A DNA stretch of 33,123 bases from Bacillota bacterium (GTDB lineage Bacteria; Bacillota; Proteinivoracia; UBA4975): contig JAAYHI010000134.1 of assembly GCA_012727415.1 (NCBI GenBank), positions 1 through 33,123 on the forward strand, given 5' to 3'. Position numbers and translations under genes: made by a program. Positions 5,215 to 27,170 of the stretch are shown here, one piece after another (the stretch's first letter is position 1; the number at the start of each line of letters is the position of its first letter). The notes beneath the pieces were generated by a model. That model was not told the origin of the DNA and ran no database searches. It worked only from the letters and a program-made list of their open reading frames with translations.

Positions 5215-7799
5215 TTACTGGCTGCACAGAGAATCCAGATATTGTTGCAGTGGCTTGAAACATTCATAAAAAACGACTATCAGATCCCCCGGCTGATGGC
5301 TTTTAACTGCAGCCTCGAGAGCTTTTACTTCGTCATGGATTATCTTGACTGCAGCCTTGGATTGAACGCTGCTTATTCCTTTTGCCAACAGGGCTGCCAC
5401 CTCACCGGGCTTTCTTCCCCGCAGATCCTTATCCTCTTTTACATATATTACATCAAAGCCCCGTCCGCACAGACTTCCGGCCTGAATTACATCCTCATCG
5501 CAGCGGTCCCCCGGCATACCAATAATCCCCACTTTCCTTAAAGGCTGCAGGGCATCTACCAGGTCCAGCATGGACTTAAAGCCTGCAACATTGTGCCCGT
5601 AATCCAGCAGCACCTGAAATGTGCCGAAATCGTAGTGATTTCCCCTTCCCGGGTTGTCCTGCCAGCTGAACTCCTTCAAACCAGAGGCGATTTCCTCTGG
5701 TTCCACCTCCAGTGCCCACAGAGCCCCAGCAGCAGCAAGACAGTTGGCCACATTGTGTCGGGCTGCGCCAGCAAAGGTTATTGGCAGTGACGCGATATCC
5801 GTCAAGGCCAGAGACTTGTTCCCTGTTACCAGGTACATTTTGTCATCCATAAGCATTACTCCCCGGCCTCCCGCCGCCAGGTGCCGGGCAAGGGTTTTAT
5901 TGTCACGACAACAGCTAAAATAGATGACCTTTCCCGGACAGCCTTCGGCCATGGCAACTACCCGTTCATCCTCGGCATTGAGGACGGCAAAGCCATTTTC
6001 GCTTACCATTTCTACCACCAGAGACTTGACATGGCAAAGCTCGTCAAGGGTATTTATGCCATCACAACCCAGGTGATCGTTGGCGATATTTGTCACCACC
6101 GCCACGGTGGATTCAGTGTAACCCAGGCCCCTGCGTACCAGCCCCCCCTGGCGGTTTCCAGCACCGCCACCTCCACTGCCGGATCAGCCAGAATTGCCTC
6201 GGCGCTTACAGGGCCTGTATTGTCCCCGGCATCGATGCAATGGCCATCGATGTATATTCCGTCTGTGCAAGCAAGGCCTGTCGTCTTTCCCTGTCGGGCC
6301 AGGACATGGGCAACGAGCCGGGCTACAGTAGTCTTGCCATTGGTCCCGGTTATACTTACCAGGGGGATGCTGTGAGGGCGTCCCCAGGGGAATAGATAAT
6401 CGACAATTGCGTCGCCAACCTGCCGCTGCATTCCCTGATGGGGATACAGGTGCATCCTGATACCGGGAGCTGCATTTACCTCAATCACAGCCCCATTTCC
6501 TTCCCCCAAGGGAAGAGAAATATCTTCGGTCACAATATCGATGCCGGCCACATCCAAGCCCAGCAAGCGGGCAATTCTGCACGCCAGCTCTTTGTTGTCA
6601 TTGTGCACACTGGCAGTTACATCTACAGCTGTGCCGCCGGTGCTTAAGTTAGCATTGTCCCGCAGATTTACTGTCTCGCCTGCGCTGGGAACATAGTTCA
6701 TTGTAAGGTTTTGCCGGGCAAGGACGTTGAAGACAATTTGGTCAACTTTTATTTTAGTCAGAGGTTTCTCATGTTCCTCTCCCCGCAGGGGATTGCAGTT
6801 CTCAATATCAATGAGGTCTTTGATTGAACTCACGCCGTCACCAAAAACTCTTGCCGGAAACCGTTCCGAGGCCGCTACCACTTTATTGTTTACAACAAGA
6901 AGGCGGTAATGGCGACCGCAGATTTGCTCCTCCACCAGAATTTTGCTGCCATAGTTTTCTGCCACCTTATACGCCGCGCGCACCTGAGCTTCGCTGGCGA
7001 GGTTGAGACTGACCCCCTTGCCTTGATTGCCGTCTACAGGCTTTACTACTGCCAGCTTTCCCATCTCCCTGGCAATCGCCACTGCATCGTCTTCGTCTCT
7101 GGCGACTTTGCCATAGGGAGTGGGGATTAATGCACTGGCGAGGATGGATTTTGTCAGTGTCTTATCCGTGGCGATATCGACCCCAATGCAGGATGTCTGC
7201 TCAGTTATTGTTGCTTCAATATACTGCCTGTACACCCCTGTACCCAAGCGAAGGAGGCTGCCATGACCCAGCATGCTGACAGGAATTCCCCTGCTGGTGG
7301 CAGCATCAACAATGGCCTGGGTGCTTGGCCCGGGCTTTTCCCGGGCAAGCTGCTCCTCAAGCTTCTCAACATCCGGAGGGCCACAATCCAAACCCTGGAG
7401 CAGTTTGGATATCATACTCATTGCCATTTCAACTGCCATGAGGGCAGTCTTTGGCCACTGACACTGGATGACGATTTTATACAATCCCTCATTAAGGGCA
7501 CGAGTTTTGCCATAGCTTGATTGATAACCAGCCATATTCAGCAACTCAATGGCTGAATGCTCCACCACGTGGCCAAAATAAGTGCCTTTTTGCATGCGCA
7601 GCACAAAGCCTCCCTGGCGGCCGATACCGCAGACATGCTCCTTCAGACCCGGCAACATCTTGAGCAAGGCAGGCGCAAAGCCGGGAAATTCACTGGTTTC
7701 TCTGCCCGCCATTTCTTCCAGATCGATAACCACCTCCAAAGCCGGTTTAAAACAATGAACATTAATCCCCGGAAAATGCCTGGACTCAACTAGCCTCAT
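5215..7799 (-). pseudogene. cphA: Cyanophycin synthetase, interrupted by a -1 frameshift at a homopolymer (ORFs 6093..7799 and 5215..6105)
   Basis: N-terminal CphA and ATP-grasp domains (DGNQGKGVSLNL, STGGTAVDVT), then Mur-ligase domain SITGTNGKTTVARLVAHVL. Reading breaks after ETARGG at a 7-G run (6142-6148) and resumes in the overlapping ORF VAVVTNIANDHLGCDGINTLDEL. Could be a real mutation or a sequencing/assembly indel. Confidence 0.85.
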
Positions 7800-8616
7800 T
7801 TTTATCCTCTCCCGGCACCAGGGCCCGCCTGTTCAGAAAATCATACCCGTAACCGCGGGGAAGAATATGGACAGTGATTGCAGTAATCCCCAAGGGCTGC
7901 CAGGGTTCTGCTTCAGAAACGTTGGTATGTTCACAGTTGTTGCCATCAACCACCGTTACTGTCTGGGAGCCAATGACCCGCATGTGGTTGTTGCTATCAA
8001 TGATAACAGCGGTGTCTTCATCAATGCCAACCCCTAAAATGGCCGGTTGTTTAGCCACTGCGGCAACAAGGCGGCCCAGCCTTCCCCTCTGGGCGAAGTG
8101 CTGGTCAATAACTACCTGGTGAACCAAGCCCATTCCCGGCCCCATGCTGATTGCTCCGGGGTAGGGGGTGCTGTCCTCATCGCCGCCAATAATCATCGTT
8201 GCGCTCATTGCTGAGGCACCCGCACTGGTCCCTGCTATAATCGTTCCCCTTCTGTATGCCTCATGGAGGGCATAATCGACCTCCGTCCCCCCCAAGAGGC
8301 TGGTGATCCGAAGCTGATCACCCCCAGTGAAAAAAATCCCCCCTGCGGACAGGATTGTCCTGGCAGAACTGGATAACTGGGCTTGCTGTCGGGAAGGAAT
8401 ATCAAGGCTGACCACCTCTTCACCCCCCAGGCGACGAAATATTTTCAGGTATTCGCTGCTGACCTTTTGCGGGCTCTGGGCTGCAGCAGTCATAATTACC
8501 AAGGGGCCCTTTCTCTTTCCTGCCAATCTGACGAATTCCCGCAGTATCTCGCAATCGCCTTCTTTATCCTCAGCACCGCCAATAATTAACAGGGTGCCCT
8601 CAGCTACATCTGTCAT
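7786..8616 (-). CDS. cphB: Cyanophycinase (S51 serine peptidase family)
   Basis: LLIIGGAEDKEGDCEILREFVRLAG, IIAGTSAGASAMSATMIIGG and DQHFAQRGRLGRL; start ATG at 8616 after GGAGGTAAGGAC; stop overlaps the cphA start. Confidence 0.95.
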   Translation of the reverse strand: MTDVAEGTLLIIGGAEDKEGDCEILREFVRLAGKRKGPLVIMTAAAQSPQKVSSEYLKIFRRLGGEEVVSLDIPSRQQAQLSSSARTILSAGGIFFTGGDQLRITSLLGGTEVDYALHEAYRRGTIIAGTSAGASAMSATMIIGGDEDSTPYPGAISMGPGMGLVHQVVIDQHFAQRGRLGRLVAAVAKQPAILGVGIDEDTAVIIDSNNHMRVIGSQTVTVVDGNNCEHTNVSEAEPWQPLGITAITVHILPRGYGYDFLNRRALVPGEDKNEAS

Positions 8617-8701
8617 GTCCTTACCTCCGCAAATATCTCTCCTCATATTATTTGCCAGGATTTTGGGATTAACCAAAAAGGAAACTTGTGTTTACTGCAA
8701 T

Positions 8702-16609: not shown

Positions 16610-17386
16610 TTATTCAGTGATATTAAACAAACTTTTAGCATTCTGTGTACATGCCGCTATTAATTGATCAGCGTCAATGCCTCGCAGGCGAGCTATTTCC
16701 GCTGCAATGAGCGGCAGGTAGCCCGGTTGATTGGTCTTGCCCCGGTGGGGGTGGGGAGTGAGATAGGGGCAATCTGTTTCCAGCACAAGCCTGTCCAGGG
16801 GAACGCTGGCCGCCACCTCCTTGGGACGCCGGGCATTGGTGAATGTCACTGGTCCCCCCAAGCCGACACAAAGGTTTAAATCAATACATTTGCTCATGGT
16901 CTCCGTTGAGCCCGAAAAACTGTGCATTACCCCGCCACGGGGCAAAGGCCCTACAGCAGCCAATATTGACAGGGTGTCTGCCACGGCCTCCCGCTGATGG
17001 ATGACAACGGGCAACCCCAGCTGGCAAGCCAGCTCCAGTTGGAGCATAAAAGCCTCCCGCTGTGTCTTCCGGGGCGAAAAGTCATAATGATAGTCCAGGC
17101 CAATCTCACCTATGGCAACCACTCGGGGATCTGCAGCAAGTTCTTTCAACAACTGCAGGCATTCCTTGTCCAAATCCTTGGCAGAATGAGGATGAAATCC
17201 CACTGCCGCCCAGATATTGGTATGCTCACGGGCCAAAGACACCGAAGCAATACTTGATTCTCTGTTATGGCCAATGTTAATCATTTTAGTGACATTATTT
17301 TCAGCGGCGAAAGCCAATACCTGATCCAGTTGACTGCTCAGGCGCCTGTCGTCGAGATGAACATGGGTGTCGATTAATTCAGGCAT
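16610..17386 (-). CDS. tatD: TatD family hydrolase
   Basis: ELIDTHVHLDDRRL, AVGFHPHSAKDL, AIGEIGLDYHYDFSPRKTQREAF and LETDCPYLTPHPHRGKTNQPGYL. Confidence 0.95.
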   Translation of the reverse strand: MPELIDTHVHLDDRRLSSQLDQVLAFAAENNVTKMINIGHNRESSIASVSLAREHTNIWAAVGFHPHSAKDLDKECLQLLKELAADPRVVAIGEIGLDYHYDFSPRKTQREAFMLQLELACQLGLPVVIHQREAVADTLSILAAVGPLPRGGVMHSFSGSTETMSKCIDLNLCVGLGGPVTFTNARRPKEVAASVPLDRLVLETDCPYLTPHPHRGKTNQPGYLPLIAAEIARLRGIDADQLIAACTQNAKSLFNITE

Positions 17387-19110
17387 GAAATTTCGCTCCC
17401 TTCGGGGATATCATCGGCGATAAAAACCGGCCTTCGTTGCCCTGTTTCTGTTGCAAGTACCAGGATCTCTCCTTCATTTTTGAGACCTTCAGTTTCGGTG
17501 GGCATGAGATTGGACAATAGCACTACTTTTTTGCCCTCCAGCGATTCTGGCGGACTTGACCTGGCAACAGGTGCAAACACAGAATAGCGCTGCCGGCCGT
17601 CGTAGAGAATTAAATGCAACAGTTCCTCATATTCTGCAACCGCTTCGGCTGAAAGCACCCTGGCCACAACCATGTTGATGCGGGCCAATTCCTCCCGGTG
17701 GATTAAATCCCGGTAGGGACCAATCCCCCCGTACCCCGGAATTATTCTGGGGAATAACACCGACTGGGGGGTGACCTTGCTGTCGACGGGCAATAATCCC
17801 CACTGCCCCAGCGAACTCCAGGCACCAAGCTCGGCAATTCCCTCTATCCCCAGCTGCTCCATAATCCTTTGGGCAGTCTCGGGCATAATGGGCTTCAGAG
17901 AAACGGCAATGAAGCGCAGGGATTCACATATGTTATACAGCACTGTATTTAAGCGCTCTTGCTGATCTCCGTCAGCGGCCAGTTGCCAGGGAGCAGTGGA
18001 GACAATGAATCTGTTGGTGACTCCAATTAAGTTTTTTATGGCCTTAATGGCCTGGGGCAGCTCCTGAGACTTGATATGCTTTTCCACTTTTCCGGGGGTA
18101 TCCAGGGCGCGTTCTCTCAGTTCCAAATCGGCATTTTGCCTTGTGAGAATATTGGGCGCAGGCACCATCCCCCCGGCAAAGTGGACAACCAGGGAAATGA
18201 CCCTGGTCACCAAGTTGCCTAACTCATTGGCCAAGTCATGGTTTATGCGTTGAATGATTTGGTCCTCTGAGTAGATGTTTTCTGAGGTGGCAGCTTTTGC
18301 AGCCAGCAACAAGTACCTGATGCTGTCCCGACCGTAATTTTGGGCCAGCAACAGAGGGCTGACCTCCTGCTGGTTCTGGTCCAGGAGCTTAATCCCGCTG
18401 TGGCAAACAAACCCGCCGGGTTGAGGCAGATTAAGTGCAAGCAGCACACCGCACCAATAATACATGTCGCTGAGGGATTCTCTGGGGAAGAAGAAATATG
18501 TATTAGGCCACAGGCGTTGAAAGCCCCCGTCGTCTACAGAATAACCGCTGCCTGTAAGAACACTGGCCAATTCACTAAACCCGTCCACAGGCAATAATTC
18601 TTGTTTGTCCCTGGAAACCTTAATGGCAAGAAGATAATCCTCAGCAGGCATATTGCTGAAGCAGTTCAGGATATAGCCCTGCTGAAATTTTGGAAGCACC
18701 ACATTCTCGCTGCTTATGAGTGCGATGATTTTTTCGCTGTATTTCTGAATGCGTAAATAATAGCCCTCCCTTTCAGCGGAAATGATATTGCCTCCGCATT
18801 TATTGCATTGCTGGGATTGGGAGCCAGGGTATCCACAGCCTTGACAAATTGCAAAAAGGCTTGTACGCTTATATACAGCCCCGGCTTGTTGCAGGCGAGT
18901 TAGCAGGAGGGAAACCCCGCTTTCATTTTCGGCGCAGCCCTCTGCAAAACCTATATTAAAAACCCTTGCAAACTCAGCAGGGGCAAGATACAGGTTGACA
19001 TCCCACCCCAACAAGTCATGGAGCCTGGCCAAGGCGTCGGCAGGAAGCTGCTGCCACTCACTATTGGGGCCTCCTGGCAGGACCCAAATATTGGCCTGCT
19101 TTTTCGGCAC
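17374..19110 (-). CDS. Methionyl-tRNA synthetase-like protein lacking recognisable HIGH and KMSKS motifs
   Basis: 578 aa, in the metS slot. Retains MetRS-like landmarks: ADALARLHDLLGWDV, paired CxxC knuckles (CQGC...CNKC), ALNLPQPGG, YGRDSIRYLLL, QRINHDLANELGNLVTRV and a C-terminal tRNA-binding-domain-like region. GTG start with AAAGGAGG RBS. Confidence 0.85.
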   Translation of the reverse strand: MPKKQANIWVLPGGPNSEWQQLPADALARLHDLLGWDVNLYLAPAEFARVFNIGFAEGCAENESGVSLLLTRLQQAGAVYKRTSLFAICQGCGYPGSQSQQCNKCGGNIISAEREGYYLRIQKYSEKIIALISSENVVLPKFQQGYILNCFSNMPAEDYLLAIKVSRDKQELLPVDGFSELASVLTGSGYSVDDGGFQRLWPNTYFFFPRESLSDMYYWCGVLLALNLPQPGGFVCHSGIKLLDQNQQEVSPLLLAQNYGRDSIRYLLLAAKAATSENIYSEDQIIQRINHDLANELGNLVTRVISLVVHFAGGMVPAPNILTRQNADLELRERALDTPGKVEKHIKSQELPQAIKAIKNLIGVTNRFIVSTAPWQLAADGDQQERLNTVLYNICESLRFIAVSLKPIMPETAQRIMEQLGIEGIAELGAWSSLGQWGLLPVDSKVTPQSVLFPRIIPGYGGIGPYRDLIHREELARINMVVARVLSAEAVAEYEELLHLILYDGRQRYSVFAPVARSSPPESLEGKKVVLLSNLMPTETEGLKNEGEILVLATETGQRRPVFIADDIPEGSEISCLN

Positions 19111-19140
19111 TTTTTTTCCTCCTTTTTTACTTAAAATCTA

Positions 19141-19210: not shown

Positions 19211-19456
19211 ATGAAATCCACAGGAATTGTACGCAAAGTAGACGAACTAGGCCGTGTTGTCCTACCCATTGAACTACGCCGCACTCTGGACATTAACCTA
19301 AAAGACTCCTTGGAGATCTATGTTGACGGTGAGAAGATTATCCTGAAGAAATACACCCCGGCCTGCATCTTCTGCGATGAAGCCGACGGCATTGTCTATT
19401 TTAAGGGGAAAAACATCTGCCCCAATTGCCTGAAGGAAATGCAAAATCTCGACTAA
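19211..19456 (+). CDS. abrB: AbrB family transcriptional regulator
   Basis: MKSTGIVRKVDELGRVVLPIELRRTLDINLKDSLEIYVDGEKIILKKY followed by a CxxC...CxxC C-terminus (CIFC...CPNC). Confidence 0.95.
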   Translation: MKSTGIVRKVDELGRVVLPIELRRTLDINLKDSLEIYVDGEKIILKKYTPACIFCDEADGIVYFKGKNICPNCLKEMQNLD

Positions 19457-25621: not shown

Positions 25622-27073
<1,452 letters not shown>

Positions 27074-27106
27074 GGCAATTCCCCCATTGTTTTTGATAAT
27101 TAACGT

Positions 27107-27135
27107 ATTATACCAGTTTACCGGGACGAGCACAA
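27107..27135 (-). promoter_or_regulatory. Sigma-A-type promoter of guaB
   Basis: Minus strand TTGTGC-N17-TATAAT. Confidence 0.6.
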
Positions 27136-27139
27136 CTTC

Positions 27140-27170
27140 GACAAATTCGGGGACGGTCCTCAAATTTGTC
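27140..27170. repeat. Imperfect palindrome in the guaB/spoVB-like divergent intergenic region
   Basis: GACAAATTCGGGGACGGTCCTCAAATTTGTC. Confidence 0.6.

Follow-up and report, generated by a model that had tools for sequence, protein, structure and literature searches.

A methionyl-tRNA synthetase gene without an active site and with a conserved anticodon-binding domain is retained under selection in an order of uncultured Bacillota

In an order of uncultured Bacillota, the native metS slot holds an intact gene whose product is homologous to type 1 methionyl-tRNA synthetase (MetRS1), yet by its sequence lacks the features that define MetRS function. This gene, here called dead metS, is maintained by selection and is not a decaying pseudogene. 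A complete MetRS of another type, MetRS2, is encoded elsewhere in the same genomes. The reading that we favor, with a probability of about 0.55, is that the product of dead metS is the displaced native MetRS1, now non-aminoacylating and probably dimeric, which would bind CAU anticodons while leaving the tRNA 3' end free.

Results

A MetRS-derived gene in the native metS slot. Dead metS lies in a 33,123-nt stretch of DNA (contig JAAYHI010000134.1, assembly GCA_012727415.1), which was analyzed as a whole and is referred to as the window (Table 1). A sequence-only reading of the window had described an intact 578-codon open reading frame (ORF) with a good ribosome-binding site, placed between abrB and tatD where Bacillus subtilis has metS. 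The frame is indeed uninterrupted, the ribosome-binding site is in place, and the gene neighbors agree with the metS slot (rsmI/abrB - metS - tatD). The order rsmI (beyond the abrB-like gene, from 19464), divergent abrB, metS, tatD, yabE-like, rnmV-like, and ksgA is B. subtilis-like, the names beyond metS being assigned from the translations. The start codon of tatD is located 13 nt inside the 3' end of dead metS.

The proposed homology to MetRS was borne out by profile searches, although the match to NCBIfam PRK12267 (E=3.1e-72, 244 bits) falls below the family cut-off of 598 bits. The class I catalytic model of Pfam, tRNA-synt_1g, aligns with residues 98-304 only, and Pfam tRNA_bind matches residues 480-572. 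Judged from these matches, the ORF is clearly MetRS-derived and a homologue of MetRS1. With type 1 bacterial MetRS (metS of B. subtilis and Staphylococcus aureus; PRK12267) it shares the locus, the domain order, a single zinc knuckle, the anticodon-reading Asn/Arg/Trp residues, and the C-terminal OB domain; it differs in being ~60 residues shorter and in having lost HIGH, TDEHG, the Met pocket, KMSKS, and the 3'-CA pocket.

Table 1. Positions of dead metS, its flanking elements, and its domains and residues in the window
Feature	Position	Strand	Description
tatD	16610..17386	-	13-nt overlap with the 3' end of dead metS
Dead metS, catalytically ablated MetRS1	17374..19110	-	578 aa, GTG start, no internal stops
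Ribosome-binding site AGGAGG	19118..19123	-	read from sequence, 7 nt 5' of GTG
abrB-like gene	19211..19456	+	divergent from dead metS
Collapsed Rossmann/CP part	18376..19110	-	residues 1-245
HIGH slot	19048..19068	-	PNSEWQQ, 6-residue deletion; alignment with canonical MetRS1
TDEHG slot	18964..18987	-	LAPAEFAR; alignment with canonical MetRS1
Single zinc knuckle	18796..18846	-	C89-x2-C92 ... C102-x2-C105; invariant, 7/7 dead proteins
KMSKS slot	18376..18390	-	KLLDQ; alignment with canonical MetRS1
Anticodon-binding helical domain	17743..18255	-	residues 286-456
N299 (18214-18216) and R303 (18202-18204)	18202..18216	-	equivalents of E. coli N391/R395, readers of the CAU anticodon
W375	17986..17988	-	equivalent of E. 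coli W461
OB-fold tRNA_bind domain	17377..17697	-	residues 472-578; fold kept, 3'-CA pocket lost
E548	17467..17469	-	Glu at the position of Trbp111 M85

The catalytic elements are gone in all full-length orthologues. In an alignment of the ORF with canonical MetRS1 proteins from the phylum, the substitutions named in the sequence-only reading proved right, both at the three motif slots of Table 1 and at SxGM, which reads KNEGEI; the paired CxxC knuckles are likewise present. The missing motifs are thus real, while the extent of the loss had been understated: missing in addition are ~50 residues of the Rossmann/CP region, along with the EDLxVSRTTFxWG segment and YVWFDAL, so that the methionine pocket segments (TDEHG, YVWFDAL, VSRTTFxWG) are lost as well. 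Among the seven full-length orthologues, HIGH is deleted or replaced in every one and KMSKS is absent from every one. Since seven distinct intact orthologues (the window included) with a mutual identity of 35-87% share these lesions, chance, sequencing error, and recent decay were rejected as explanations. Invariant residues persist within the collapsed part, namely, D25, R29, W201, W219, and P231. A still-active MetRS with displaced or unrecognized catalytic motifs is therefore a reading to which we give next to no weight: it has overall homology in its favor and nothing more, against the loss of HIGH, TDEHG, VSRTTFxWG, YVWFDAL, and KMSKS and the presence of a full MetRS elsewhere.

An AlphaFold2 model (18 sequences), a check suggested in the sequence-only reading, gave a confident fold with a mean pLDDT of 86.5 and a pTM of 0.74. 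The anticodon domain is predicted with high confidence, and the shrunken Rossmann part is predicted to be still folded. The best PDB match of the model by Foldseek is the Mycobacterium tuberculosis MetRS 5xgq (E=1.6e-29, TM 0.66 over the query).

The anticodon domain is kept and the 3'-CA pocket is not. Conserved columns were defined as those with at least 90% conservation in 27 canonical MetRS1 sequences, and as kept when found in at least six of the seven dead orthologues (catalytic/CP part). By this measure, 29 of 38 columns are kept in the anticodon domain versus 14 of 103 in the catalytic/CP part (Fisher p = 3.5e-12). E. coli MetRS reads the CAU anticodon with N391, R395, and W461, whose Aquifex aeolicus equivalents are N353/R357/W422 (PMC10535265); the residues that align with the E. 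coli set, N299, R303, and W375, are invariant in 7/7 dead proteins. The conservation of anticodon residues could in part be a product of fold constraints.

The C-terminal region had been called tRNA-binding-domain-like, and this holds for the domain and its fold, which is that of the Trbp111 / Arc1p / EMAPII OB domain (PF01588; best PDB match 8vtz, 5e-15), while the residues by which Trbp111 holds the tRNA 3' CA are lost. The OB domain of Trbp111 contacts the 3' CA only, via E32/K33, K73, R75, I77, F78, S82, and M85; K33A, S82A, M85A, and F78A impair tRNA binding, and R75A nearly abolishes it (PMC11286949). Canonical MetRS1 tails have K33 in 25 of 26 sequences and both S82 and M85 in 26 of 26. 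In the seven dead tails, Glu replaces Met at the M85 position in all (7/7), Lys is found at the K33 position in none (0/7), position 78 is mostly acidic, and position 82 is Asn or Ser. Thus the OB fold of Trbp111-like binders is there and their pocket residues (K33, F/R78, S82, M85) are not. Six of the seven dead tails carry a net charge of -4 to -7, more acidic than any canonical tail (-3 to +5). Because the catalytic pocket and the OB 3'-CA pocket have both been lost, both acceptor-end contacts of the dead protein are gone.

Distribution and descent of the dead form. Eight genomes of the order, representing three families, were examined: the window's own (G000), four of the same genus (G001-G004), one of the same family (G005), and two from other families (G006 and G007). 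The dead form stands beside tatD in all eight; the G001 copy is interrupted by a run of N, the other seven are full-length, and no truncated orthologue occurs. Named records with the dead form are UBA5509, UBA5496, UBA5286, UBA4975, AS09scLD_78, and CSSed10_237R1, all of them uncultured assemblies. In a search of 399 genomes of the phylum, the dead clade, leaving aside the N-gapped copy of G001, scored 817-1044 bits and the match that followed 389. No dead homologues were recognized outside the order in one contig scan and this phylum search, in which weaker matches were motif-checked in part. We found no description of a dead-MetRS1 family in the open-access papers searched.

Another family of the class has a canonical MetRS1. 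In a tree built on the KMSKS-side/anticodon region, the dead proteins are monophyletic (100/99), and their sister is this canonical MetRS1 (92/85). One dead clade that is sister to the MetRS1 of the class is most simply explained by a single inactivation, in place, of the native MetRS1 gene. Descent from MetRS1 is supported by that grouping together with the single zinc knuckle, following the typing of PMC8165550.

The working enzyme is a T-box-controlled MetRS2. The sequence-only reading had anticipated a genuine MetRS elsewhere in the genome, and a complete one was found on contig C152 (PF09334, 478 bits over positions 1-391), with HLGH and KLSTS, 548 aa, two knuckles, and no C-terminal tRNA_bind domain. 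The PDB entry that it matches best is Pyrococcus MetRS 1rqg (E=4.6e-139), and under the MetRS1/MetRS2 scheme of PMC8165550 its sequence features class it as type 2. Orthologues accompany dead metS in 8/8 order genomes (that of G002 reads in two frames and that of G005 is cut by a contig end), with 69-88% identity among full-length aligned members; since they occur in every order genome, contamination was rejected as the origin of the second MetRS.

A T-box at Rfam gathering score precedes the MetRS2 gene in G000-G004, G006, G007, and G011. In the seven leaders from the order, the conserved GAA is followed by C-AUG-purine (six) or G-AUG-G (G006), which we read as an AUG specifier. The Rfam scan found no T-box at the dead genes scanned. 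In G010, a genome without MetRS2, a T-box is found at metS. G011, of the sister family, combines an intact MetRS1 with a MetRS2 that is under T-box control and 51% identical to that of the order (loci L106 and L087); with both enzymes present, it may resemble the intermediate state that preceded catalytic loss in MetRS1. We also looked for odd tRNA biology in the form of a missing tilS, fmt, or CAU tRNA and did not find it. Both genes are present, along with three CAU tRNAs, as is usual for bacteria; no other aspect of CAU-tRNA biology thus signals a special need.

Selection on dead metS. By the Nei-Gojobori method, dN/dS of dead metS is 0.096 for the pair G000-G004 (dS 1.09) and 0.113 for G003-G002 (dS 0.64), deeper pairs being saturated at synonymous sites. 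These values are on par with those of its neighbors rsmI (0.097 and 0.139) and tatD (0.089 and 0.104), in line with the proposed purifying selection on the retained frame; MetRS2 has 0.080 (G000-G004). For G000-G004, pN is 0.06 in the anticodon domain versus 0.16 in residues 116-245. Between families, identity is 14-28% in residues 1-65, 18-20% in residues 116-245, and about 50% in the anticodon domain. The dead protein is constrained yet faster evolving, since its identity between families is 35-41% as against 69-73% for MetRS2.

The start of tatD within the last codons of dead metS would allow a pseudogene whose frame is held by translational coupling alone. A dN/dS near 0.1 and domain-specific conservation are unexpected from frame maintenance alone, and on these grounds pseudogene and coupling explanations were ruled out; we would assign coupling at most a very slight residual chance. 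Selection for a non-aminoacylating role, as put forward in the sequence-only reading, has come through each computational test proposed there (second MetRS, dN/dS, no truncation) and is the role that the data suggest.

Other observations. An in-frame TAA (26435-26437, minus strand) interrupts the IMP dehydrogenase gene guaB (25622-27163); as guaB is open in the seven related genomes checked (7/7), the TAA seems to be a lesion or assembly error confined to the window's assembly. A frameshift divides a cyanophycin synthetase-like gene (5215-7799, minus strand) into ORFs of 568 aa and 296 aa that overlap each other; a cyanophycinase-like ORF (7786-8676) adjoins this gene. A free-standing 110-aa tRNA_bind protein (Trbp/CsaA-like) is encoded at G006:C76:9340-9627, in G006 only among the order genomes.

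Discussion

We propose that a type 2 MetRS became the working enzyme and thereby freed the native MetRS1 from aminoacylation, and that the MetRS1 active site would then have been removed at the base of the order. The remnant would be folded and probably dimeric, with a helical domain that goes on reading the CAU anticodon, while its former acceptor-end contacts, the catalytic pocket and the C-terminal 3'-CA pocket, are gone. It most likely binds CAU-anticodon tRNAs, charged or not: elongator and initiator tRNAMet and possibly unmodified tRNAIle2. As a holding or regulatory factor, it might adjust how much free tRNAMet is available to MetRS2, to the tRNAMet-sensing T-box of metRS2, or to initiation. 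tRNA binding, dimerization through the OB domain, and regulatory use are what we infer for the dead protein, and the step to regulation, be it by holding tRNAMet, by way of the T-box, or in initiation, is an argument from logic. A tentative extension of the favored reading, to which we give roughly one chance in three, is that this bacterial protein has become dedicated to binding CAU anticodons and holds tRNAMet by the anticodon alone, whether or not the tRNA is charged.

Arc1p pairs with MetRS, and the dead protein might similarly be an accessory subunit of MetRS2, a tRNA-binding, dimerizing platform for an enzyme without its own C-terminal domain. MetRS2 does end without a tRNA_bind domain, carriers of that domain in most order genomes are the dead protein and PheT-sized proteins only, and the two genes occur together in 8/8 genomes; SLIMP, the partner of mitochondrial SerRS2, is a precedent (PMC10570016, PMC9437257). 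We consider this, the main rival of the favored reading, less likely, since the 3'-CA pocket, which is what made Trbp/Arc1p domains useful, is lost and MetRS2 and the retained anticodon site would be competitors for the same bases; furthermore, the MetRS2 of G011 is equally long and exists beside an intact MetRS1. More doubtful still is a non-tRNA ligand, for example an mRNA hairpin whose loop carries CAU, that would make the dead protein a translational regulator. Retained anticodon readers without either acceptor-end contact would fit an anticodon-like loop alone, but dead metS has a divergent promoter region of ~100 nt with no Rfam element. It is improbable, too, that a new catalytic or ligand-binding function has arisen in the collapsed Rossmann/CP part, with tRNA binding as an incidental property: this part is predicted to be folded and has the invariant zinc quartet and the five other invariant residues, yet it is the least conserved part of the protein when compared between families with the anticodon domain.

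Synthetase-like proteins without aminoacylation are a known kind, and the sequences suggest that what is new here is a class I, bacterial case that arose in place, not by duplication, and kept its anticodon half. Most characterized bacterial synthetase-like proteins have kept the catalytic fold and given up or changed tRNA binding. HisZ, which regulates HisG, and YadB (Glu-Q-RS), which has a working catalytic domain and no anticodon domain, had been named as precedents; they are apt as bacterial, synthetase-derived proteins with non-canonical roles, but both keep the catalytic-domain fold, whereas here it is the anticodon domain that is conserved. A closer parallel in the combination of an ablated active site with purifying selection, which dead metS displays, is SLIMP, a SerRS-like protein of animal mitochondria that forms a heterodimer with the working SerRS2 (PMC10570016, PMC9437257). 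Both derive from a synthetase and coexist with one that still works on the same amino acid; SLIMP is a duplicate of a class II eukaryotic SerRS and pairs with its parent, while the dead MetRS is class I and bacterial, sits at the original locus, and was displaced by a non-orthologous MetRS2. LeuRS-I of the Sulfolobaceae, a second synthetase that binds tRNA without aminoacylating it, still makes leucyl-adenylate (PMC9437257), whereas the dead MetRS has no adenylation motif left.

The annotation "methionine--tRNA ligase" would be wrong at the dead metS locus, which is relevant to MetRS1-directed drugs. Dead metS presents the reverse of the usual case, with acceptor-end contacts all lost and the anticodon-reading half kept across an order, and offers a clean, testable example of what purpose a synthetase may serve once aminoacylation is removed. 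It suggests that MetRS replacement need not always end in gene loss. If the proposed role is true, the protein would represent a novel type of regulator, acting at the level of tRNA on methionine charging, on the metRS2 T-box, or on initiation.
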